From assembly GCA_004134995.1 (NCBI GenBank), contig REGP01000004.1, forward strand, positions 62,001 through 126,000: a DNA stretch of 64,000 nt. Reading direction: 5' to 3'. This DNA comes from Oxalobacteraceae bacterium CAVE-383 (GTDB lineage: Bacteria; Pseudomonadota; Gammaproteobacteria; Burkholderiales; Burkholderiaceae_D). The notes beneath the pieces are model-generated. The model ran no database searches. It was given only the letters and a program-made list of their open reading frames with translations, and was not told where the DNA came from. A program made the translations under genes and the position numbers. Positions within the stretch are counted from its first letter, which is position 1; every line of letters begins with the position of its first letter. Of this stretch, positions 38,174 through 48,632 are shown one piece after another.

Positions 38174-38559
38174 GTTCGACTCCCTAAAGTTAATAAATTA
38201 ACTACATGACAGCATGTGACCACCATGGCTGAAATATCTTCGGCACGCCGATAAGATCAAGAAAATGCCATAAGGAAATAGTGTTCGTTGTGCAATAGAT
38301 GCGCGGTGCAAAGAAAATAGATTGCAAGGAGCACAATTGCCGGAACTGAAACCATTGACAATTTCAATGAGGTGCTCATGGGATGTTTCAATCGTGAATG
38401 ATCGACGTAGGCATCTTAAGCGGGCGCCGCAAGCCAAAATATAGGACGGCTACGCTTTCGTTTGTAGGAGAAACGGAGGAGGGCGAGTCAGAGCAAACCC
38501 CTGAAGAAGATGCCGGCGGATGCTCTGAAAAGTGGCTGAAATGTTGCGGAAAAGCAGTC
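38174..38559. other. Gene-free stretch upstream of csbD
   Basis: This stretch holds no convincing gene. It contains the TCCTAC-type element at 38439-38470 about 265 bases before csbD, then AT-rich sequence and a possible -35 TTGACA near 38355 on the plus strand. No terminator hairpin is evident after the kinase gene on the right. Confidence 0.5.
38439..38470 (-). promoter_or_regulatory. TCCTAC-N17-TCCTAT element upstream of csbD
   Basis: On the minus strand TCCTAC (38469-38464) and TCCTAT (38446-38441) start 23 bases apart, the spacing of a -35/-10 pair. It is one of at least five copies in 38-49 kb with the same spacing. Confidence 0.55.
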
Positions 38560-40623
38560 TTAAAGCCCTGTAGGAGGCGCCAGCGGAATTTCAATGGCAA
38601 TGGTGGTGCCGCGCTTTGCGCCGTTGGCGCGGATTTCGACGTTGCCGCCAAAGAAGGTGGCGCGTTCGCGCAGCCCGCGCAAGCCGTAAGTGGTGGTGTT
38701 GCTGCGCCGTTCTTCACTGATGCCGACGCCGTCGTCGCGCACTGTGAGGGCGAGCCGGTCTTCGTCGACGTCGAGGATGACGTCGATCCGGGTCGCGTTG
38801 GCGTGCTTGGTGACGTTATTCAGGATTTCCTGCAGCATGCGGTAAATGGCGATTTCCATCTGATGGCCGACGGTCACGTCCTCATCGGGCATGCTGGCCT
38901 TGCAGATCAGGCCGGAACGCTGGCTGAGTTCGTCCAACTGTTCGACAATAGCCGCTTTCAAGCCGAACAGATCCAGCATGTTCGGCCGCAATTCGGTCTG
39001 GATGCGGCGCGTCGTCGCCACCAGGGCATTGAGCAGCGTCTGAATACGGCCTTTGCGGTCTATCCATTTGTCCTCGTCGGGGAACAGCTTGTAGACGGTT
39101 TCCAGGTGCATGCTCAATGCGGTCAGCGACGCCCCCATGTTGTCATGCAGTTCCCGGGCGATGGATTGCTTTTCCTCTTCGCGCACGGTTTCCAGGTGGT
39201 TGGTCAGTTCGCGCAGCAGCGTGGTGCGTTCGATCACGGTTTTTTCGAGTTGCGATTCGCGTTCGCGCAGCGAATCCTCGGCCAGTTTGCGCGCGGTGAT
39301 GTCGGTGCTGATCCCCACCACGCCCAGCACTTTCCCGCGCTTGTCGAGCCAGGGCGCCTTGGTGGTCTGGTAAGTCACCACGCCGGTCGGCAGATGCAGC
39401 GTCTGCTCCAGGGTTTCCGACTGCCTGGAATTCATGATGTCGCGGTCTTCGCGGTCGATTTGCTCGGCTTCGGCGGCATCCGGATAGAGGTCGCGGCTGT
39501 GGCGGTAAATGGCCTTGTCCCAGCTTTTTCCAAACTGTTTCAAGGTGGCCGGGTTGGCGAAGATCAGGCGGCCCTGGCTATCCTTGACGAAAATCGGGTC
39601 ATGCGTGTTGTCGCTGACGGCAATCAGCAAGGCGGTGGTTTCCGCCAGCGCCGCGGCGTTGTGGATGCGGGCGCCGTATTCCTGGTCCACGCGCGCCGCG
39701 GTGCGCCAGAAAATCAGCAGGATCAGGGCGCAATTGATCAGGGTCAGCATCGGCGCCACGGCATGGAAATCGTAATAACCGAGGCGCGCCCCCCAATCTA
39801 CCAGCCAGTCCACCAGCATCAGCAACGCCAGCATTTGCGGCAGCGAGCGGCGCAGCATCTGGCCGCCGGGCGCATTGCGCACCACGATGGCCATGAGGTG
39901 ATGGGTGGGGCGCGACATCAGGCAGCCGGCGCCGAAGAAGATGAAGGTGACGGCGGAGGGCAGCGGCACGCTGTGCTGCTGCAGCAGGCGCATCATCGGA
40001 TCGAGCCGGTAGGCGTAGCCCAGCAGCGCGACCAGGTTGATTACGATGATGGCGCAGGCCAGATATTCGGCCGGATAACGATCGGTCTTGATGCGGCGGT
40101 CGTGCAGCGCCAGGGTGAATGCCGCCAGGATGAACGCAATGGCGCTGGCCGGATGGACGTAGTAGGAAAATCCCGCGCCGGGTATCGGATAGGCCGGGCC
40201 CGATGCAAGCAGCAGATTGACGCCGCCGAGCAGCAATAGCAGCGCGGCGCAGATGCGCGCGCCGACGCGCTGCAGCTTGCCGGGTTCCAGGCATTGCAGG
40301 TACAGCGCCAGGCCGCCGAACAGGAAGCCGGCGGCGGTGCCGCTGCCCATGTCGCTGAGCCGGGAGACGGCGGTCCGATAGGCGCCGTCCAGGAAGCCCG
40401 CGGTGAATACGAAGCCGCCGATCAGCAGCACGATCACGGCCAGGGCCCGGGCTACCGAAGCGATCCAGAAGGCATGGCTTTGGCGCACCGACAGCAGATC
40501 GACCGAATGTTGCACGGCGGGCAAGACTTTTTCAGCCGTTTCGCGGCGGCTGTCCTGAGGTAAATCGCTTGCCGGATTCCTGCCCGAATTGCTACCCGAA
40601 TTGTTACTCGAATTGCTACCCAT
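38560..40623 (-). CDS. Membrane sensor histidine kinase, NarX/DegS-type
   Basis: This is a 687-residue protein. After a low-complexity Ser/Asn start, residues 50-310 hold about eight membrane helices; a PAS domain with associated segment follows (PIFVKDSQGRLIFANPATL to GISTDITARKLAEDSL), then a coiled coil, a HisKA_3 domain (SIARELHDNMGASLTAL, His phosphorylation) and an ATPase domain (ILNNVTKHANATRIDV, DDGVGI, YGLRGLRERATFFGG). It probably signals to the NarL-type regulator two genes downstream. The signal is unknown. Confidence 0.88.
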   Translation of the reverse strand: MGSNSSNNSGSNSGRNPASDLPQDSRRETAEKVLPAVQHSVDLLSVRQSHAFWIASVARALAVIVLLIGGFVFTAGFLDGAYRTAVSRLSDMGSGTAAGFLFGGLALYLQCLEPGKLQRVGARICAALLLLLGGVNLLLASGPAYPIPGAGFSYYVHPASAIAFILAAFTLALHDRRIKTDRYPAEYLACAIIVINLVALLGYAYRLDPMMRLLQQHSVPLPSAVTFIFFGAGCLMSRPTHHLMAIVVRNAPGGQMLRRSLPQMLALLMLVDWLVDWGARLGYYDFHAVAPMLTLINCALILLIFWRTAARVDQEYGARIHNAAALAETTALLIAVSDNTHDPIFVKDSQGRLIFANPATLKQFGKSWDKAIYRHSRDLYPDAAEAEQIDREDRDIMNSRQSETLEQTLHLPTGVVTYQTTKAPWLDKRGKVLGVVGISTDITARKLAEDSLRERESQLEKTVIERTTLLRELTNHLETVREEEKQSIARELHDNMGASLTALSMHLETVYKLFPDEDKWIDRKGRIQTLLNALVATTRRIQTELRPNMLDLFGLKAAIVEQLDELSQRSGLICKASMPDEDVTVGHQMEIAIYRMLQEILNNVTKHANATRIDVILDVDEDRLALTVRDDGVGISEERRSNTTTYGLRGLRERATFFGGNVEIRANGAKRGTTIAIEIPLAPPTGL

Positions 40624-40695
40624 TAACGCCCCGTTTTGCTTGCCGTCCGTTTATATGAAAAACGTATCCATCGTCACTCCTGTGCGGCGGCCGGC

Positions 40696-41115
40696 TTATC
40701 GCTGTTGTGCGCTGGCGCCGAGGTTTTCCAGGAATTGACGCAATTGCAGGAATTCGGACGATTTATCAAAAAAATACTCGACGCCCAGTTTAGCGCCAAC
40801 CTGGCGATATGCGTTGCTGACGTTATTGCTGAAAATGATTTTCAATGCATTGGCCTGCATGCTGGCGCGCGCCAGCGACTGCAGCAGGCTCATCCCGTTG
40901 CCCTGTTTCAGTTGGATATCCAGGATCAGCACGTCGTAGTTGTCTTGATTCAGGCGGCTCAAGGCGTCATTTTCCGTTTCGGAGAAACCGGCATAGTCGA
41001 TGCCGGGAATTTCCTGCAGGTTTTCGATCAATAAATCGCGCACATCCGGCGAATCTTCTACCAGGAAAATACGAATCGCAGCCGGATGCGGCACGGTGGA
41101 ATTGATAAGGGTCAT
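40696..41115 (-). CDS. Stand-alone receiver-domain response regulator
   Basis: The 139-residue protein consists of one receiver domain: FLVEDSPDVRDLL (acid pair), VLILDIQLKQGNG (phospho-accepting Asp) and YFFDKSSEFLQL (the usual lysine). No output domain exists, so it may relay phosphate or act by protein contact. The ATG at 41115 is chosen (GGAA upstream). It lies downstream of the NarL-type regulator and upstream of the kinase on the same strand. Confidence 0.85.
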   Translation of the reverse strand: MTLINSTVPHPAAIRIFLVEDSPDVRDLLIENLQEIPGIDYAGFSETENDALSRLNQDNYDVLILDIQLKQGNGMSLLQSLARASMQANALKIIFSNNVSNAYRQVGAKLGVEYFFDKSSEFLQLRQFLENLGASAQQR

Positions 41116-41262
41116 TATGAGTTCCAAAATCGCTACGGCCCTAAGAAACTGTATTGCGGCAATATCCCTTTATTAGCCGGATCCGGCGCTGCATCCGTAC
41201 GTGAGGCATGGCATCGTCATTGCGAAGCGCCGCCGGATGAGAAATGGGTAACCGCACAGTCG

Positions 41263-41895
41263 TTAATCAATCAGGTTGTTTTTGATCGCGTAATAAATGA
41301 TATCGGCATTGTTCGACATATTCATTTTCTGCAGAACGCGGGATCGATAGGTACTGACGGTTTTTACGCTCAGGCACAGTTCATCGGCGATTTTGGTGAC
41401 GCCTTCGCCCTGGCCCAATTTGTAAAAAATCTCGTATTCACGCTCGGACAATGTTTCGTGCAGGGGCTTTTGGGTATCGGTATCGCGGTCGGTGGTGAGC
41501 AGCTCGGCGACGCCGTAACTAATATATTTGTGGCCGCGCAAAATGGTGTTGATGGCATTTACCAGCTCGTTCGGCAGCGCTTCCTTCTGGACGTAACCGC
41601 TGGCGCCGCTGCGCAAGACCTGTACTGCGTAACGGTTTTCCGGATGCATGCTGAGCATCAGGACGGGTAATTTCGGTTTCTCCCGCTTGATCTGTTTCAA
41701 TACTTCCACGCCGCTCTTGTCGGGCATGGCGATATCGAGGAGGACGATATCCCACTCCTCATTGCGCACCATGCGGATGGCTTCTTCCGCAGAGCTGGCT
41801 TCGCCGCCGATTTCCATATTCGGAATCTCGGAAATGAAATGATTGACCCCGGCTCTTACGACAGCATGATCATCAACTACAAGAATTTTTATCAT
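41263..41895 (-). CDS. NarL/FixJ-family response regulator
   Basis: The 210-residue protein has a receiver domain (ILVVDDHAVVRAGV, DIVLLDIAMPDKSG, VQKEALP) and a C-terminal LuxR-type helix-turn-helix (LSEREYEIFYKLGQGEGVTK, then ELCLSVKTVSTYRSRVLQKM). It is the probable DNA-binding partner of the membrane kinase on the same strand. It is a candidate for the factor recognising the repeated element in this region, but that is only proximity. Confidence 0.92.
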   Translation of the reverse strand: MIKILVVDDHAVVRAGVNHFISEIPNMEIGGEASSAEEAIRMVRNEEWDIVLLDIAMPDKSGVEVLKQIKREKPKLPVLMLSMHPENRYAVQVLRSGASGYVQKEALPNELVNAINTILRGHKYISYGVAELLTTDRDTDTQKPLHETLSEREYEIFYKLGQGEGVTKIADELCLSVKTVSTYRSRVLQKMNMSNNADIIYYAIKNNLID

Positions 41896-42097
41896 ATCTT
41901 TATTGAATCGCGAAGGTATATACCGTCGGCTTTAATGGTGTTGAACGTATTCTGCCGAAGCATTTTCCGTCCATCGGCAGAGCGACCGGCCCGCACCACT
42001 AAATTATTTTAGTAAAGGGTGAGATGTAATTCCGTGTCAGACTTTTCACTATACATGAATTGTACGACAGGTCCATTTTGGCATTTTTCCATGGATA

Positions 42098-42128
42098 AAT
42101 CCGGACAAATGCATAATTTGTCCGGATT
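42098..42128. repeat. Perfect 13-base inverted repeat
   Basis: AATCCGGACAAAT and ATTTGTCCGGATT are exact reverse complements with loop GCATA. It lies 30 bases past the stop of the BON gene. No T-run follows, so it may be a weak terminator or an operator. Confidence 0.6.
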
Positions 42129-42158
42129 AGCCAAATACCGCTTACTTATTACTTGCTG

Positions 42159-42470
42159 CTACTTGACGTGAATATCGTTTTTCACCGCTTTCACGCCTTC
42201 AACGCCGCTGGCCACTGCGCCGGCGCGCTCAACCGCTTCCCTGGTATTGACGAAGCCGCTCAACTGGACCGTGCCCTTGAAGGTTTCGACGTTGATTTCG
42301 GTCGCCTTCAGATTCGGTTCCTTGACGATGGCGGCTTTGACCTTGGTTGTGATCACGGCATCGTCCACATAGCCGCCCGGGCCGTTTTGGGTTGGGGTCG
42401 AGGCGCAGCCGGCGATTGCCAGCAGGGAAAACGCAAACAGGACTGCGGCAAGGCGTTTGATGATGTTCAT
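42159..42470 (-). CDS. BON-domain lipoprotein
   Basis: This is a 103-residue protein with a lipoprotein signal (ALLAIAGC-like end: SLLAIAGC) and one BON domain (DDAVITTKVKAAIVKEP, then TVQLSGFVNTREAVERA). BON domains bind phospholipids or surfaces, as in OsmY, and are common in envelope stress responses. It probably resides in the outer membrane. Confidence 0.88.
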   Translation of the reverse strand: MNIIKRLAAVLFAFSLLAIAGCASTPTQNGPGGYVDDAVITTKVKAAIVKEPNLKATEINVETFKGTVQLSGFVNTREAVERAGAVASGVEGVKAVKNDIHVK

Positions 42471-42565
42471 GAATGACTCCTGATTGGATGAATATGCCGG
42501 CGGTCTGCCGGTGTGTTGTTGTTACTGCAAATTACCGTCGATCGCGGCGCCCGGTATTGCTCGCC

Positions 42566-42943
42566 TTATTGCTTGTACTGGGTGCGCGCGGTATTGATGC
42601 AGCTATCCTTGGCATCGCCTTTCAATGCGTCGCACTTTTCCTTGGCGGCGGCATAGTTGGCGTCATTCTTGTCCGCGGCGGCATCCTTGCGGGCATCCGT
42701 GGTCTTGCGGGCGGCCTTGGCGTTGGAGACGGCGGTTGTGTGCGCGGCCTTGGCTTCCTTCAGGCAGACATCCTTGTCGTTGCCTTTCTGTTCGTCGCAT
42801 TTTGCCTTGGCGACCTTGTAATCGATGTCCGCCTGTTTCGTGGTGGCTTTGTAGGTTGCCTTTGCGCTGTCCGCTGCAAAGCCGGCGGATTGCATGCCGA
42901 GGGCGCCGAGACCGAAAACGATGGTAGCGATTATTTTTTTCAT
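42566..42943 (-). CDS. Periplasmic Ala/Lys-rich protein with paired cysteines
   Basis: The 125-residue protein has a signal peptide (IIATIVFGLGALGMQSAGFA) and a helical Lys/Ala/Asp-rich mature part. Two similar units appear: AKCDEQKGNDKDVCLKEAKA and EKCDALKGDAKDSCINTARTQ, each with Cys-x9/10-Cys, suggesting duplicated disulfide-bonded hairpins. AAGGA precedes the ATG at 42943. Related unannotated proteins occur in Burkholderiales; no function is known. Confidence 0.68.
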   Translation of the reverse strand: MKKIIATIVFGLGALGMQSAGFAADSAKATYKATTKQADIDYKVAKAKCDEQKGNDKDVCLKEAKAAHTTAVSNAKAARKTTDARKDAAADKNDANYAAAKEKCDALKGDAKDSCINTARTQYKQ

Positions 42944-43021
42944 GATGAAATATCCTTTTTTTAAGATTTGAAGTGCCGGGTGCTGCATTGCATTACTGCT
43001 GGTTGAAAACCGGGCCGCGCG

Positions 43022-43564
43022 TCATTGCAGCAGATCGCGCAAATCGTCGGCATGCTCTTCCTCGGCGCCCATGATCTCCACCAGCATCTGGCGGGTGGTC
43101 GGATCGCTGTCGCCGATCCTCGCTATCATCTGGCGATACGATTCGATGGCTACCCGTTCGGCAACCAGATCGGCCTTGATCATCTCCCTGACGTCGGTCG
43201 AAGCGTCGTATTCGGCATGGCTGCGCGAAGTCAGGATGGCGGGATTGAAGTCCGGCTCGCCGTTCAATTGCACGATGCGTTCGGCGATGCGATCGGCGTG
43301 CTGCTCCTCTTCGCCCGCGTGTTCCAGGAATTCCGCCTTGACCGATTCGGTGCCCGGGCCGCTGGCGGTGAAGTAGTGGCGCTTGTAGCGCAATATGCAG
43401 AGCAATTCGGTGGCAAGCGCGTCGTTGAGCATTGCAACGATTTCCTCGCGGTTGCCTTGATAGCCCTCGGTGACGGGGCCGTCGTCGAGTTTTCTGGCGG
43501 CGGCCCGAATGGCCGCGACATCGATGTGGAACGGCTCGACGCCGGTGTTGTCATTTTTTGTCAT
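43022..43564 (-). CDS. Ferritin-like/bacterioferritin-type protein
   Basis: This 180-residue four-helix protein has the di-iron pattern NDALATELLCILRYKRHYF, HAGEEEQHADRIAERI, ERVAIESYRQMI and MGAEEEHADDLRDLL. It probably stores or oxidises iron and protects DNA from peroxide. It overlaps the preceding gene by 14 bases, so they are co-transcribed. Confidence 0.85.
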   Translation of the reverse strand: MTKNDNTGVEPFHIDVAAIRAAARKLDDGPVTEGYQGNREEIVAMLNDALATELLCILRYKRHYFTASGPGTESVKAEFLEHAGEEEQHADRIAERIVQLNGEPDFNPAILTSRSHAEYDASTDVREMIKADLVAERVAIESYRQMIARIGDSDPTTRQMLVEIMGAEEEHADDLRDLLQ

Positions 43565-43904
43565 TGCTTTTCCTTCCTTTGAAAAATCGCGGCAGCGCTG
43601 AAGCCGCGCCCAGAATCATGGCGCCGTACAGCACCGGTTTACGTATCGCCCGGGTCGACGCCGAAGATGCCGTCAAAACGCCATCGACGACGACCGGCAG
43701 GATTTTTTCGACCTTGGTCAGCACGTTGACCTGCTGCAGATGCAGCCGCCGTTTCAACATGCCGAACGCCGCGGCCTTTGCCTGGCCGGTCAGCACCTTG
43801 ATGTCGGCCGAGTGGCGAACGGCCTGGACGGCGTTCAGCAGCTGTGCGCGGCAAACCGCCCCCCGCATGATCAACTGCTGCTTGCGCTGGGCATGTTCAG
43901 TCAT
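43551..43904 (-). CDS. Hypothetical protein beside DUF883 gene
   Basis: This is a 117-residue basic protein with helical start (MTEHAQRKQQLIMRGAVCRA) and one possible membrane segment (YGAMILGAASALP). Position next to a DUF883 gene recalls YqjK in enterobacteria, but the sequences are too different for a firm claim. Its stop lies inside the ferritin-like gene. Confidence 0.6.
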   Translation of the reverse strand: MTEHAQRKQQLIMRGAVCRAQLLNAVQAVRHSADIKVLTGQAKAAAFGMLKRRLHLQQVNVLTKVEKILPVVVDGVLTASSASTRAIRKPVLYGAMILGAASALPRFFKGRKSNDKK

Positions 43905-43958
43905 GAAGGTTCTCCATGAATGGACGAAGAGAGCAAGGCATGGCAGGTCTTTGCTTGA

Positions 43959-44270
43959 TTACTTGCCGCAGCTGCGGGCCAGGGCCAGGCCGGCAAGCAG
44001 GCCGATCGCGCTGGAAATGGCGACGGCGCGCCAAGGATTCTGGTTGACGTAATCGTCGGTATTGGCGACCAGTTCCTTGCCGCCGGCAATGGCGCTCGAC
44101 TGCACGGCCTGGGCGCGCGCTGCCGCGTCTTCCAGCAAGCTCATGGCCTTGGTGCGCAATTCGTCGGCCTTGGCGGCGGTCGCAGTGGCGGCTTCCTTGA
44201 ACAGATCCTGCGCTTCGGCGATCAGGGTATTGACGTCATTGCGGACGGTCTTGATTTTGGCTTCGTTCAT
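43959..44270 (-). CDS. DUF883 (ElaB/YqjD) family membrane-anchored protein
   Basis: The protein has 103 residues: a long amphipathic helix (VRNDVNTLIAEAQDLFKEAATA) and a C-terminal anchor (NPWRAVAISSAIGLLAGLALA) typical of ElaB/YqjD. Relatives bind the ribosome at the inner membrane in stationary phase. It follows a 25-codon membrane gene and probably shares its promoter. Confidence 0.9.
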   Translation of the reverse strand: MNEAKIKTVRNDVNTLIAEAQDLFKEAATATAAKADELRTKAMSLLEDAAARAQAVQSSAIAGGKELVANTDDYVNQNPWRAVAISSAIGLLAGLALARSCGK

Positions 44271-44363
44271 GATTTCGATCCTTAAGGGTTGTCGAGGCGG
44301 ACGGAGGCGTCGGCATTGTTGAAGGCTGGACCGGTGCGGCTGTTGCGGGGCGCGGCAGGCGTG

Positions 44364-44441
44364 TCAGGACGTGAAATATTGCAAGGCAATCAATACCAGC
44401 ATCGGTACGCCCAGCATCCAGCCCAGTATGTATTTGTCCAT
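44364..44441 (-). CDS. Tiny hydrophobic membrane peptide (25 residues)
   Basis: MDKYILGWMLGVPMLVLIAL followed by QYFTS forms a single membrane helix. A GGGAAA site lies eight bases ahead, and the frame begins about 45 bases downstream of the TCCTAC element. The length, membrane character and ribosome-binding site support a real small gene, but only sequence evidence exists. Confidence 0.5.
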   Translation of the reverse strand: MDKYILGWMLGVPMLVLIALQYFTS

Positions 44442-44492
44442 TTTTCGTTTCCCGGCATGTGTAGCAACGATACAGACCGCTCTTGTAGGCAC

Positions 44493-44525
44493 ATATAGGA
44501 CTGCGCCTGAATGTCTTGTAGGACA
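44493..44525 (-). promoter_or_regulatory. TCCTAC-N17-TCCTAT element before the DUF883 operon
   Basis: Minus-strand TCCTAC (44523-44518) and TCCTAT (44500-44495) start 23 bases apart. Between them is ACATTCAG, shared with the copy at 48.6 kb. A further GCCTACAA sits 10 bases past the second block. Confidence 0.6.
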
Positions 44526-44531
44526 ACTCGG

Positions 44532-44750
44532 TTATTTTTCGAGTTCCGCGATTAATTTATGTATTTGCAGGCGGTCGATGCAGCTCTTGATGATCTGTTG
44601 GGCTTCTCCGATGGCCACTTGCCCTTTTCCGGCGAAATAATGGCGTTGCCCGGCTTCGGCCAAGGTCTGGTTGCCAAGCACCTGGCCGGCCGTTTGCTGG
44701 CAGGCGCCGAAAACAGTCTTGGTATGGCCGATGACGATATTCATGTTCAT
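44532..44750 (-). CDS. CsbD-like small stress protein
   Basis: The protein has 72 residues, beginning MNMNIVIGHTKTVFGACQQ and containing GQVLGNQTLAEAGQRHYFAGKGQVAIGEAQQI, which follows the CsbD repeat pattern. The start at 44750 is chosen because AGGAG lies seven bases upstream. Its own TCCTAC element sits about 80 bases upstream. Confidence 0.75.
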   Translation of the reverse strand: MNMNIVIGHTKTVFGACQQTAGQVLGNQTLAEAGQRHYFAGKGQVAIGEAQQIIKSCIDRLQIHKLIAELEK

Positions 44751-44821
44751 GCAAAAGCTCCTGGCTGGGGGCATCGAGGGGAACAGCATGGAAGGATGGT
44801 AGCGAGGCACCCTGTCGGCGC

Positions 44822-44854
44822 GTATCAGACTCCTACGCTTTATCTTGTAGGACA
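44822..44854 (-). promoter_or_regulatory. TCCTAC element before the second CsbD-like gene
   Basis: Minus-strand TCCTAC (44852-44847) is followed 23 bases later by TCTGAT (44829-44824). The segment AAAGCGTAG between them is shared with the copy at 38.4 kb. It is divergent from the next copy. Confidence 0.5.
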
Positions 44855-44879
44855 AGTGCACCCTCGCCGTCTTTCTTAG

Positions 44880-44913
44880 ATTCCTACGCAGCAATCAGCA
44901 GAACGCCGATAGT
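44880..44913 (+). promoter_or_regulatory. TCCTAC element before the DUF2383 gene
   Basis: TCCTAC (44882-44887) is followed 23 bases later by GCCGATA, with AATCAG between. It lies about 110 bases upstream of the DUF2383 start and has the same layout as the minus-strand copies. Confidence 0.45.
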
Positions 44914-45025
44914 TGCTGTGCGAGGCCACGCCTACAGTTGGCAATACTGAAACGTATTGATCGCGATTGCATCTGCATTCGGCGGTCTTTCCAGTACATT
45001 CATCCACGCAATTGAAAGGAATATC

Positions 45026-45490
45026 ATGACTAACGACGATGTCATCTCAGTATTGAACGATCTGATTCAGACTTCGAAAGACGGCGAAGAGGGCTTCCGT
45101 ACTTGCGCTGAAGATGCCAGCCAGCGCGATGTGCAGCTCAAAATGATGTTCCAGGATCGCTCGCGCAGTTGTGCCGCGGCCGCATCCGAACTGCAGGAAT
45201 TGGTGCGTGCGTTGGGCGGCGATCCAAGTAACCACGGCACCGTCAGCGGCAGCATGCATCGCCAATGGCTGAACATCAAATCGTTGATTACCGGCAAGGA
45301 CGACGAAGCGGTCTTGAATGAATGCGAACGCGGCGAAGATGCGGCTCTGAAGTCGTATCGCGAAGCGCTGCAGAAGGATCTGCCGGCCAATATCCGGATG
45401 GTGGTCGAACGCCAATATCAGGGCGTGCTGGCCAATCACGACCGGATCAAGGCCCTGCGCGACCAGGTTCGCATGCACAACGTCGCCTGA
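45026..45490 (+). CDS. DUF2383/PA2169-type four-helix-bundle protein
   Basis: The protein has 154 residues, predicted all-helical, beginning MTNDDVISVLNDLIQTSKDG with a ferritin-like second half (ALKSYREALQKDLPANIRMV, ERQYQGVLANHDRIKALRD). Function is unknown; relatives appear with stress genes. AAAGGAA precedes the ATG at 45026. Confidence 0.85.
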   Translation: MTNDDVISVLNDLIQTSKDGEEGFRTCAEDASQRDVQLKMMFQDRSRSCAAAASELQELVRALGGDPSNHGTVSGSMHRQWLNIKSLITGKDDEAVLNECERGEDAALKSYREALQKDLPANIRMVVERQYQGVLANHDRIKALRDQVRMHNVA

Positions 45491-45515
45491 GTTGATTTTT
45501 AAAGCGGGCGATGAC

Positions 45516-45544
45516 GAGAGCGACTTCGGTCGCTCTCTTTTTTT
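45516..45544 (+). terminator. UUCG-loop terminator after the DUF2383 gene
   Basis: GAGAGCGAC and GTCGCTCTC pair around TTCG and are followed by seven T residues. Confidence 0.95.
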
Positions 45545-45567
45545 ATACGACAGAAATCGGAGGTCTT

Positions 45568-46923
45568 ATCAATACCGGCGATATCGGCCTGATCTGGTAT
45601 TTGATTTTCGGCATTCTGCTGATCTCCATGGCGCTGATGGCGTCTGTATTGGAGCGCCTGCCTGTCAGCCCGGCAATGTTTTACCTCGCGGTCGGCTTCG
45701 CGCTGGGGCCGTCCGCATCGGGTCTTGTGCGCATTCCTTATGCGGCGCATGCGGCATTGCTGACCGAGGCGACCCGCATCGCCCTGCTGATTTCGCTGTT
45801 CACGGTAGGTTTGAAGCTGCGCGCGGATCTGCGCGACAGGATCTGGCTGTTGCCGCTGCGGCTTGGAGTGGCCGGCATGCTGGTCACGATAGGCTTGCTG
45901 ACGCTGGGCGGCGTGTATCTGCTGGCATTGCCGCTGGGCGCCGCGGTTCTGCTGGCCGCCATTCTCGCGCCGACCGATCCGGTGCTGGCGTCGGATGTGC
46001 AAATCAAGGATGTCGCCGATCGGGATCATTTCCGTTTCGGCCTGACAGGCGAGGGCGGCCTGAACGACGGCACCGCGTTTCCGTTCGTCATGCTGGGCCT
46101 TGCGTTGCTGGGCGCGGAACAGGCCCGGATGTATGCCGGCCTGGACGGCGTATTGAAAATGGCATGGGGCGTGCTGGCCGGCCCGCTGTGCGGCTGGCTG
46201 TTGGGATGGTCGGTCGGCAACGGCGTGGTGTTCTTGCGCAAACGTTATCGCCTGGCGTTCGGCATGGAGGAATTTCTGGCGATCGGCCTGATTGCCTTGT
46301 CGTACGGATTGGCCGAGTCGATCCGCGGCTTCGGGTTTTTAGCGGTATTCGCGGCCGGCGTCGGCATGCGGCGCATCGAGGCGGCCGCCGCAGGCGAGGC
46401 CGGGATGGAAAATGGCGCCTCGCCTTCTCCCGCGCTGGCCAAACTGGCGGGGGAGGCCGAGTCGGTCGCCGGCAGCGACGACAAGGCGCCGGCCTATATG
46501 GCCGCGACCGTGCTCGACTTCAATCAGCAGATCGAACACTTCGCGGAATTTATGACGGTGTTATTGCTCGGCATCCTGATTTCGCATACCGGCTTTTCCT
46601 GGGAAGGACTGGGAGTTGCCCTGGTGCTGTTCGGCATCGTGCGTCCGCTTTCGGTAATGATCGCCCTGGCCGGCGCCGGGACGCCCCGCCTGCAGCGCCA
46701 TCTGATGGGCTGGTTCGGCATTCGCGGCATCGGCTCGCTGTATTACCTGCTGTTTGCGTTGCAATATCCATGGCGCATTCCGCTTGAACAGCGCGTGACC
46801 GCCATTGTGATGACGGTGCTGGCGTTGTCGGTGGCGCTGCATGGCGTATCGTCGACGCCGCTGATGAAGATGTATGGACGGCGCCGGCAGTCGCAGCCGG
46901 GTACGGGGCAAGATAAAGAATAG
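45568..46923 (+). CDS. CPA1-family sodium/proton antiporter
   Basis: This is an integral membrane protein of about 450 residues with ten to twelve helices and the transport-site region LAAILAPTDPVLASDVQ, then GGLNDGTAFPFV. A central hydrophilic insertion (about 290-330) precedes the last helices. The start is unclear: an in-frame ATG at 45511 lies inside the previous terminator, GGAGG (45559-45563) is followed by an ATC at 45568, and the next standard start is TTG at 45601. It probably helps in pH or Na homeostasis. Confidence 0.83.
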   Translation: MNTGDIGLIWYLIFGILLISMALMASVLERLPVSPAMFYLAVGFALGPSASGLVRIPYAAHAALLTEATRIALLISLFTVGLKLRADLRDRIWLLPLRLGVAGMLVTIGLLTLGGVYLLALPLGAAVLLAAILAPTDPVLASDVQIKDVADRDHFRFGLTGEGGLNDGTAFPFVMLGLALLGAEQARMYAGLDGVLKMAWGVLAGPLCGWLLGWSVGNGVVFLRKRYRLAFGMEEFLAIGLIALSYGLAESIRGFGFLAVFAAGVGMRRIEAAAAGEAGMENGASPSPALAKLAGEAESVAGSDDKAPAYMAATVLDFNQQIEHFAEFMTVLLLGILISHTGFSWEGLGVALVLFGIVRPLSVMIALAGAGTPRLQRHLMGWFGIRGIGSLYYLLFALQYPWRIPLEQRVTAIVMTVLALSVALHGVSSTPLMKMYGRRRQSQPGTGQDKE

Positions 46924-46925
46924 TA

Positions 46926-46947
46926 AAAGGGAACCGAAGTTCCCTTT
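46926..46947. terminator. Hairpin between antiporter and DUF3309 genes
   Basis: AAAGGGAAC and GTTCCCTTT pair around CGAA, serving convergent genes. The T-run is short. Confidence 0.7.
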
Positions 46948-46974
46948 GGGTTTCGATGCAATCGATCCGTCGCC

Positions 46975-47130
46975 TCAGATGCGTCCGAGTAACAACAGGA
47001 CGATCAGGACAATCAGGACCACGCCCGCGATACCGCTGGGGCCATAACCCCAATTGCGGCTGTGCGGCCAAGACGGCAGTGCGCCGATCAACAGCAGAAT
47101 CAGAATTACCAACAGAACTGTGCCGAGCAT
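46975..47130 (-). CDS. DUF3309-family tiny membrane protein
   Basis: The 51-residue protein has two hydrophobic helices (MLGTVLLVILILLLIGALP and IAGVVLIVLIVLLLLGRI) around a short WPHSRNWGYGPSG loop, the DUF3309 pattern. Function is unknown. An AGGAG-type site precedes the start. Confidence 0.9.
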   Translation of the reverse strand: MLGTVLLVILILLLIGALPSWPHSRNWGYGPSGIAGVVLIVLIVLLLLGRI

Positions 47131-47203
47131 ATTTTTCTCCTTTTAGGACAATCCCTTAATGGAATGTAATCGATAGACTCCGGGTTCTTCAGTTAGTTGC
47201 GGG

Positions 47204-48178
47204 TTAGTTATCCATTACGGATTTTTTCGACGTCAAAAAAGCTTTATTGGCGGGGCCGCCGCTTGATACTGCATCCGGCGATGCTTCGCGCAAGCTGCCG
47301 AAGGTCAGCGCATATTGGCGCGTAAATTCGGCGCCGAAGAAAAAAATCTGCGCCGAATAATATATCCAGATCAATAACGCGGCCAGCGAGCCTGCCGCGC
47401 CGTAGGTGCTGGTCACGCCGCTGTTGCCGAGGTAAACGCCGATCAGGTACTTGCCCAGCGTGAACAACGCGGCCGTTCCCAGCGATCCGATCACAACGTC
47501 GCGCCAGGACAGCGGCGCCTGCGGCAGCATCTTGAAGATCGCGGCAAACATGCCGGCGATCACCAGGAATGAAAACAGCGAAGCCAGGGGTGTCAGCACC
47601 ACCAGGAAATTCGACCATACGCCGCTCCAGTAACTCTGCAGCACGGCCAGCATCGCATTGACGACGAGCGATACCAGCAACAGGAATCCCAATACCAAAA
47701 TTAGTCCGAATGACAGCAGGCGCGTGCGAATCAAGGTAAGGACGCCGCCCGCCGGCGGTTTGGGGACCTGCCAGATGTCGTCCAGGCTATCCTTGAGTTC
47801 GGAAAATACGGTGGTGGCGCCGACCAGCAACAGGGCTGTTGCGATCACTGTCGCGATCGTGCCGCCGCGATCGTTATTGGCGCTGACCAGCGCGGTCTGG
47901 ATGGCTTGCGCGCCGACTTCGCCGACCAGTCCGCTGAGTTGGGAAACGATTTCGCCCTGGGCCGCGCTGGGGCCGAAAAACGCGCCTGCAATGGCGGTGA
48001 CCAATACCAGGATTGGCGCCATCGAAAACATCGTATAGAACGCGACCGCTGCGCCTTTGCTGGCGGCGCGATGATCGACCCAGGATTTGCCGGCACGCAG
48101 CAGCAGGCGGCCCAGGCGGCGCCATCCGGTCGCTTTGACGGCGGCGGGCCGGGTCGGCGATGGCGAGGCGGCGGGCAT
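47204..48178 (-). CDS. YihY/BrkB-family membrane protein
   Basis: This is a 324-residue protein with six membrane helices and family motifs KGAAVAFYTMFSMAPILVLV, SLDDIWQVP and GSLAALLIWIYYSAQIFFFGAEFTR. The function of the family is unsettled (once called RNase BN). The start at 48178 is chosen because longer readings overlap the upstream gene. It follows a 109-residue hypothetical gene by 14 bases. Confidence 0.88.
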   Translation of the reverse strand: MPAASPSPTRPAAVKATGWRRLGRLLLRAGKSWVDHRAASKGAAVAFYTMFSMAPILVLVTAIAGAFFGPSAAQGEIVSQLSGLVGEVGAQAIQTALVSANNDRGGTIATVIATALLLVGATTVFSELKDSLDDIWQVPKPPAGGVLTLIRTRLLSFGLILVLGFLLLVSLVVNAMLAVLQSYWSGVWSNFLVVLTPLASLFSFLVIAGMFAAIFKMLPQAPLSWRDVVIGSLGTAALFTLGKYLIGVYLGNSGVTSTYGAAGSLAALLIWIYYSAQIFFFGAEFTRQYALTFGSLREASPDAVSSGGPANKAFLTSKKSVMDN

Positions 48179-48192
48179 GGCGGGATTGGCGG

Positions 48193-48522
48193 TTACGGCC
48201 AGGGCATCGGCGTGACCGGGATGAACTGCGCGCCGCCGGGAACGGCCGGATCGGCCTCCATGCGGGCGCCGGCGCGCAGGCATATCGCGGCCAGATCCTG
48301 GCGCGAGCGCTCGAAACACGCGGAATCCGGCGGCGTACCGTCAAGCGGCCAATGGTCAATGGCCCAGTCGACGTAAGCCTGGAAGCGCAGCGCCAGTTCT
48401 TCCGCGTAGTGCCGGCTTGCGGCTTCGCCCGCATGCGCGAAGCCGCCGCCGTCGGCCGCGGCCGGTTTCGACTGCGCGGCATCCAGCCGGCGATTGCTGC
48501 GTTCAAGCTTGTCGATGTTCAT
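48193..48522 (-). CDS. Hypothetical protein upstream of YihY gene
   Basis: The protein has 109 residues with no signal peptide. It is mainly helical (HYAEELALRFQAYVDWAIDHW) with two cysteines and a proline-rich end. AAGGA precedes the ATG at 48522. It shares a transcript with the YihY gene and has a TCCTAC element about 80 bases upstream. No family is recognised. Confidence 0.6.
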   Translation of the reverse strand: MNIDKLERSNRRLDAAQSKPAAADGGGFAHAGEAASRHYAEELALRFQAYVDWAIDHWPLDGTPPDSACFERSRQDLAAICLRAGARMEADPAVPGGAQFIPVTPMPWP

Positions 48523-48599
48523 GATATGGATCCTTGTCATTGCGGCCTGCGGCCGATGTCTCCATGCGCAAAATCATAGCAACCGGCGCTGCCCGCCGC

Positions 48600-48632
48600 A
48601 GGTAGGAGAGGGGCTGAATGTATTGTAGGAGG
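48600..48632 (-). promoter_or_regulatory. TCCTAC-N17-TCCTAC element before the YihY unit
   Basis: Minus-strand TCCTAC occurs at 48630-48625 and at 48607-48602, start to start 23 bases, with ACATTCAG between, as in the DUF883 copy. Confidence 0.55.

Follow-up and report, generated by a model that had tools for sequence, protein, structure and literature searches.

Among described systems, the closest in working to the one proposed here would be the BvgA-activated promoters of Bordetella. According to excerpts of PMC7250471, BvgA is a NarL-family activator with a strong primary site, TAAGAAATTTCCTA, and a TTTCCTA-type half-site, and its dimers are spaced 22 bp apart, the nearest abutting the -35 position of promoters with poor -35 boxes. 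In a 64,000-nucleotide stretch of Oxalobacteraceae bacterium CAVE-383 (contig REGP01000004.1 of assembly GCA_004134995.1, positions 62,001 to 126,000 of the forward strand; the window hereafter means this whole stretch), five copies of a two-block element, TCCTAC-N17-NCYKAY, lie upstream of genes of stress-protection type. We conclude that the motif is real and widely conserved, and that it acts as a DNA switch before bacterial stress-protection genes. Judging from sequence comparisons, we consider it probable that each copy serves a sigma70-type promoter as its activator operator, read by a NarL-type response regulator encoded in the window, and that the copies together define a stress regulon.

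The element-bearing promoters resemble those of BvgA in their TCCTA-type half-sites, in their poor -35 region and in the proposed NarL-family activator. The step of the element is 23 bp, and its second block ends near -35. In contrast to the strong BvgA sites, which are inverted heptads, its two blocks are direct and non-identical, with no inverted heptad conserved, and its targets are of stress type. A second parallel is CrbR of Pseudomonas, described in passages of PMC5715377 as a LuxR-family response regulator whose conserved operator, ACTU, covers -52 to -36 and directly precedes an RpoD promoter; the ACTU motif was found by comparing the promoters of related genes. The element likewise appears as a conserved operator just upstream of a housekeeping-type promoter, with a response regulator as its proposed reader, but ACTU is an imperfect inverted repeat at acetate genes of Gammaproteobacteria, and both motif and regulon are unlike those of the element. 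By analogy, we would class the element among response-regulator-activated promoters, outside the BvgA and CrbR regulons.

General stress regulons are well known under the sigma factors RpoS, SigB and EcfG, and the output proposed here, a general stress regulon, is like that of EcfG in Alphaproteobacteria. EcfG is an extracytoplasmic function (ECF) sigma factor that reads a GGAAC-N16-17-CGTT promoter; the element, in contrast, implies no sigma factor, and its promoter is different. The word CsbD, which names one of the target families of the element, occurs in PMC7083833. GacA/UvrY and RcsB have the same NarL/FixJ fold as the window regulator. The GacA half-site, TGTAAG, resembles TGTAGG, the reverse complement of CCTACA, but the halves of a GacA site are arranged the other way, as the palindrome TGTAAG-N6-CTTACA. 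Among the matches listed from the open-access full-text literature, the matching passages hold no description of the motif or of the regulon, and the statement in a sequence-only reading of this DNA that no motif of this form had been described stands uncontradicted there; the passages from PMC5192318 concern a mostly CreB-type regulator operon, and those from PMC3093359 name HrpL and one siderophore-linked ECF sigma factor in H. seropedicae.

Architecture of the element-bearing promoters

The pattern TCCTAC-N17-NCYKAY matches the window five times, against a mean of 0.02 and a maximum of 1 in 100 dinucleotide shuffles (Table 1). The sequence-only reading had reported five copies with a 23-base step, and all are present, although their starts had been placed 2 bases too low. 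It had also read the first three second blocks correctly but interchanged the last two, the order in copies 1 to 5 being TCCTAT, TCCTAT, TCTGAT, GCCGAT and TCCTAC. The recurring spacer pieces that it had listed, ACATTCAG, AAAGCGTAG and ATCAG/TTCAG, are indeed common to window copies. Four of the five copies carry a longer first block, TCCTACAA, and each copy is oriented toward its downstream gene. A site model for which other genomes, among them close relatives, supplied the 46 training sites placed exactly these five copies above threshold in the 64 kb, and found none in 20 first-order Markov shuffles.

Alignment of the sites reveals a third block at a fixed distance from the first two. With offsets counted from the first T of the first block, 47 of 51 non-redundant sites have TAnnnT at one of two offsets, +51 (39 sites) or +52 (8 sites), while any other offset from 29 to 71 has it in 0 to 2 of the 51; near-identical sites (at least 75% over about 80 bases) were merged before this count and before the 50-, 27- and 6-site counts. 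The columns of the alignment, from which 7 of 98 sites with other second blocks were excluded, read TTGTCCTACAA at -3 to 7, A[AT]T..G at 11-16, GTCCKATA at 22-29 and T-A-n-n-n-T at 51-56; the invariance of the first block (positions 0-7) is fixed by the search pattern and is no result, and the K, A and T of the second block were also constrained. Conservation is at most weak in columns 31-50, between the operator (columns -3 to 30) and the -10, and weak or absent in the flanks outside the blocks. A -10-like hexamer, absent from the sequence-only reading, occurs at +51 or +52 in all five window copies, and among 31 TCCTACAA sites of this genome TAnnnT is found at +51/+52 in 5 of the 7 with a second block and in 1 of the 24 without. 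In 58 sites from genera g275, g277, g283, g290, g303 and g311 (identical copies removed, no other merging), 34 have TAnnnT at +51, while in 4 it is found at +50 and in 1 at +52; CATnAT takes its place at +51 in 15 more.

TAnnnT is the standard housekeeping -10, although RpoS, which uses similar hexamers, may also be the sigma factor involved. Counted from this -10, with the start inferred, the element spans about -63 to -35 and leaves no -35 consensus, which is the anatomy of an activator-dependent promoter. No consensus -35 was present between operator and -10 (columns 28-34 of the site alignment), so that the core promoter appears to depend on an activator. With the start placed in this way, the sites show the features of class II activator-dependent sigma70-type promoters: an operator that ends at or overlaps the -35 place, a -10 and no -35 consensus.

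Two of the window copies are arranged in a further way. Copies 3 and 4 (44824-44910) stand back to back with 29 bases between them, facing outward to the CsbD-like and DUF2383 genes, and divergent pairs with wider gaps also occur in other Herbaspirillum loci (L042, L043, L052). The spacer of copy 3 holds an inverted TCCTAC half (GTAGGA), giving TCCTAC-N10-GTAGGA; the regulator may bind this copy in a different mode.

Distribution of the element and of candidate regulators

The element is confined to one family in the samples searched. In the genus sample, 19 of 21 genomes contain TCCTACAA-N15-TCCTAT, with 38 rows in all, whereas the reversed pattern gave 0. In the family, TCCTACAA-N15-TCCKAT is present in 191 of 392 sampled genomes and 19 of 44 genera, the reversed pattern being found in 3 genomes. 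When the spacer was left free between 11 and 19, N15 accounted for 120 of 150 rows among the matches listed and eight other spacings shared the remaining 30; these rows represent 22 of 34 genomes and include orthologous repeats and some N15 rows in coding sequence. Outside the family, 5 of 290 genomes in the order sample had a match, compared with 1 of 300 when the reversed control was used, with YAnnnT at +51 in one of the five and at +52 in another; as a set these matches are at chance level and were rejected as true elements, a few real outliers being possible. A stricter pattern had 0 matches in the 368 genomes of the class sample outside the family, three of them from the same order, and a strict-pattern scan of named genomes returned 21 loci, 20 labelled Herbaspirillum and one from a metagenome-assembled genome labelled Duganella.

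A PAS histidine kinase, a lone receiver protein and a NarL-type response regulator sit amid the element-bearing gene set of the window (Table 1). The receiver and LuxR-type DNA-binding domains of the regulator match PF00072 and PF00196 above cut-off, and its solved relatives include VraR (the best, E 9.1e-32), RcsB (E 4.6e-18), NarL and EvgA. Of the 21 strict-pattern loci, 16 (15 labelled Herbaspirillum and the one labelled Duganella) have the regulator at 87-89% identity, whereas the kinase matches, seen in 12 of the strict-pattern loci, are 38-57% identical and some are truncated. Orthologs of the regulator, which we call type I, are present in 82 of the 392 family genomes (E<1e-100; next match 6.6e-69). 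The exact element is found in 70 of these 82, including 31 of 31 in the genus, and also in 121 of the 310 family genomes without type I, distributed by genus as g290 55, g311 23, g283 16, g303 9, g277 9, g275 5 and single cases 4. The window regulator was accordingly rejected as the sole reader, because g275, g277, g283, g290, g303 and g311 have elements but no type I ortholog.

A second regulator accompanies the element in several of these genera. In g303, a diverged regulator (46-47% identical) lies in a similar cluster with BON, CsbD-like, DUF883-like and DUF2383-like genes, all but BON named from sequence. Used as a query on 32 chosen genomes, it identified a type II regulator in 19 (79-100% identical, E<=5e-109; next 5e-64), and type II is present in all 10 tested genomes of g275, g283, g290 and g311. 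The exact element occurs in 16 of the 19 type II genomes and in 3 of the 13 tested genomes with neither type. Within g303, the element is present in 9 of the 12 genomes that have type II and in none of the 8 that lack it (Fisher p=0.0014, indicative only); the genomes are related and were partly chosen by element status, so that p-values overstate independence. Regulator and element are linked in the Herbaspirillum, g299 and g303 clusters; in g290 the regulator is 13 kb from one element in 3 of 3 genomes, and in g311 the distance is 33 kb in 2 of 2. In 12 of 13 fetched loci, the type II gene has a kinase relative next to it. In g299 (L113, L119) the element is upstream of the response-regulator gene itself, which suggests autoregulation in that genus.

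In a 72-row tree, types I and II each form one clade and are joined (89/85, together with the divergent row L235) apart from other paralogs. Their recognition helix, S[VI]KT[VI]STYRxR, is common to 26 of 26 type I and 17 of 17 type II proteins, while among 29 paralogs the threonine of STY is replaced by M or E in 21, and STY is present in 3. The nearest paralogs (47-51% identical) were rejected as readers: they form a separate 16-row group with no element in the fetched surroundings, and they are also present in element-free genomes (for example G424, G498 and G407). The middle block of the operator differs between regulator lineages. In 50 sites from mostly type I loci, column 11 is A in 36, column 12 A/T in 50, column 13 T in 38 and column 16 G in 47; in 27 sites of g275, g277, g283, g290 and g311, columns 11-13 have A in 2, A/T in 10 and T in 7, and column 16 has G in 15. 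Type I genomes supplied most but not all of the first of these groups (loci L001-L173), and a -10-like hexamer at +50 to +52 was required of every site compared, which biases the -10 columns of the comparison. The AAT part of the operator thus appears to vary with the presumed reader, and the G is partly kept.

A proposed circuit and its alternatives

The model that we propose starts from direct observations: the element, its fixed place relative to the -10, its orientation into the window genes, its restriction to one family in the samples, its bias to stress genes and its co-occurrence with a regulator. Regulator binding, activation, the sigma factor used and the signal are what we infer. 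The operator would read roughly TTGTCCTACAA-N3-AATcgG-N5-GTCCKATA and take the place of the -35 box, at about -63 to -35 from the predicted start, with the TAnnnT hexamer at its fixed distance. The PAS histidine kinase would drive phosphorylation of the NarL-type regulator; the phosphorylated regulator most likely binds two TCCTA half-sites separated by a step of 23 bp, or two helical turns, and would recruit the housekeeping RNA polymerase. In this genome it would thereby activate a general-stress regulon dispersed over about 15-20 promoters. One of the two suggestions of the sequence-only reading had been that the blocks are paired sites for the NarL-type regulator nearby, and linkage, co-occurrence and the common recognition helix argue for this; binding itself is a prediction.

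Several findings weigh against this reading. The two blocks are similar, not identical (TCCTACAA versus GTCCKAT), which is odd for equal half-sites, and it is possible that some other factor travels with the regulator. Neither regulator type was found in G003, G426 and G446, each of which has one exact element; these may be relics, assembly gaps or chance matches, or may have another reader. The exact element was not found in 12 type I genomes and 3 type II genomes (G547, G688, G483). Among the 121 genomes that have the element but no type I, the type II comparison covers 22 (19 by query, 3 by fetched loci), none of them from g277. In g275, g283 and g311, about 5-7 kb around the type II gene (fetched stretches of 13-15 kb) showed no element, the site-model scan gave the window regulator gene no element of its own, and the divergent L235 regulator, inside the joint clade, has no element in its fetched surroundings.

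Some of these findings would also fit a different, unlinked activator working on the same sigma70-type promoters, the response regulator being merely another member of the regulon cluster. The three genomes with an element and neither regulator type are in keeping with this, as are the elements of g275, g283 and g311 that are not adjacent to a regulator gene, and the g299 regulator gene, preceded by an element, looks like a target. We nevertheless regard such an activator as unlikely: the presence of the element tracks the two regulator types across genera and within g303, the AAT block of the spacer is strong in the mostly type I genomes alone, and the recognition helix is common to both types and different in most paralogs, and autoregulation also explains the g299 arrangement.

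The other suggestion of the sequence-only reading, a promoter for an alternative sigma factor, would make TCCTACAA the -35 and GTCCKAT the -10 of an ECF-type promoter with an N15-17 spacer. The spacing is rigid, the spacer length and the TCCKAT/TCTGAT second block are like those of ECF promoters and their -10 sequences, and sigma-factor matches number 12 in this genome, several being of a size typical of ECF factors. However, the two blocks are not the sole core promoter elements; a sigma70-type -10 accompanies them in the 47 of 51 sites given above, and on this reading it would fall inside the transcript and remain unexplained. The ECF promoter was abandoned because this hexamer emerged in the column statistics. 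In addition, no element was found when the 12 sigma-factor genes of this genome were inspected with about 1.5 kb to either side, and the conserved cluster contains a response regulator. We hold the ECF reading to be quite improbable. Least credible of all is a repressor site, or a dispersed repeat with no regulatory role. Repressors, too, bind at the place of the -35 box, which the element overlaps, but with no consensus -35 left in columns 28-34 the core promoter looks activator-dependent; the flanks are weakly or not conserved, unlike those of a repeat, and copies also stand before stress-type genes in distant genera.

Returning to activation by a NarL-type regulator, we lean towards a wider picture in which one family (Herbaspirillum, labelled Oxalobacteraceae, and relatives) would control its general stress response with no sigma factor dedicated to it. 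Instead, two sister regulators of NarL type, each beside a histidine kinase, would share one operator, joined to housekeeping-type promoters with constant spacing. The genes under their control, dispersed as a regulon, would be of the CsbD, DUF883, DUF2383, BON, KGG-type and Mn-catalase-like kinds; the middle block differs by regulator lineage, so that regulator and sites would have diverged together.

Target genes and the stress regulon

The placement before stress genes claimed by the earlier reading is supported: the window targets are CsbD, DUF883, DUF2383 and YihY units, and more such genes are found elsewhere in the genome. A search of this genome gave, with one mismatch allowed, 32 rows against 12 for the reversed control. 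Re-scored with the site model, this yielded 20 candidates above 14, including the five window copies, and all but 2 of the 20 are followed by a -10 in register; the low-scoring rows may include chance matches. The candidates precede CsbD, DUF883, GlsB-like, BON-like, DUF4142-like and GalU-like (galU-like) genes. Also preceded by candidates are a molybdopterin-enzyme-like gene, the gene of a stress-type glycine-zipper protein and several short open reading frames (ORFs); for genes outside the window, the names come from sequence and not from Pfam. In g275, g283, g290 and g311 the element stands before genes named in the same way as KGG-type stress proteins and Mn-catalase-like proteins. The common theme of the targets, protection in desiccation, osmotic stress and stationary phase, suggests a general stress response.

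Two sets of small ORFs follow the element. Relatives of 24 amino acids (aa) of the 25-aa ORF after copy 2 lie directly after the element in L043, L045 and L080, and this 24-25-aa ORF probably encodes an unannotated small membrane protein. In g277 (L179, L182, L186, L187) and g311 (L194, L196), a 37-38-aa peptide with a common LCSADVL core begins 28-50 nucleotides after the -10 and is probably an unannotated small protein as well. Between the -10 of copy 1 and csbD lies a leader (38174-38413, minus strand) of about 240 nucleotides with no recognisable ORF, similar in length in the L048 relative; it is possibly a regulatory leader. Elsewhere in the genome, at L264, a GCCTAC-type copy is followed by a LigD-like gene (a DNA end-joining ligase, named from sequence); its membership in the regulon is doubtful, no good -10 being in register.

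Table 1. Positions in the window of the element copies, their -10-like hexamers, the candidate regulatory genes and the target genes
Feature	Position	Strand	Details
Element copy 1	38441..38469	-	TCCTACAA-N14-GTCCTAT; model score 51.6, highest in window
Element copy 2	44495..44523	-	TCCTACAA-N14-GTCCTAT; model score 46.0
Element copy 3	44824..44852	-	TCCTACAA-N14-GTCTGAT; model score 43.1
Element copy 4	44882..44910	+	TCCTACGC...CGCCGAT; weakest copy, model score 28.5
Element copy 5	48602..48630	-	TCCTACAA-N14-CTCCTAC; model score 38.7
-10-like hexamer, copy 1	38413..38418	-	TAAGAT, +51
-10-like hexamer, copy 2	44467..44472	-	TATCGT, +51
-10-like hexamer, copy 3	44796..44801	-	TACCAT, +51
-10-like hexamer, copy 4	44933..44938	+	TACAGT, +51
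-10-like hexamer, copy 5	48573..48578	-	TATGAT, +52
NarL/LuxR-type response regulator (type I)	41263..41895	-	Proposed reader; PF00072 and PF00196
Stand-alone receiver protein beside regulator	40696..41127	-	PF00072; relatives in same cluster of other genomes
PAS histidine kinase (HisKA_3)	38560..40623	-	Proposed sensor; PF07730, PF02518, PF08448
CsbD gene, 59 aa	37994..38173	-	Downstream of copy 1; PF05532 E 9.3e-14
25-aa hydrophobic ORF	44364..44441	-	First after copy 2, upstream of DUF883; MDK..LGW.LGVP...
DUF883 gene	43959..44270	-	Downstream of copy 2; PF05957, PF19029
CsbD-like gene, 72 aa	44532..44750	-	Downstream of copy 3; PF05532 E 4.2e-5, 23.8 bits, below cut-off 40
DUF2383 gene	45026..45490	+	Downstream of copy 4; PF09537 E 5.1e-41
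109-aa ORF	48193..48522	-	Downstream of copy 5; no Pfam match
YihY/BrkB-type membrane protein gene	47204..48319	-	Next same-direction gene after 109-aa ORF; PF03631 E 1.1e-46; start codon uncertain

We know of no general stress regulon with its own operator in this environmentally common family. The element seems to define one, and none such is described in the literature covered. It provides a sequence rule for predicting the regulon in genomes of the family, and it brings genes of unknown role (DUF883, DUF2383, CsbD and those for the 25-aa and 37-38-aa peptides) into one circuit, for which the model points to one regulator and one kinase. The two regulator lineages, which seemingly share an operator, would offer a natural case of co-divergence between a regulator and its sites.

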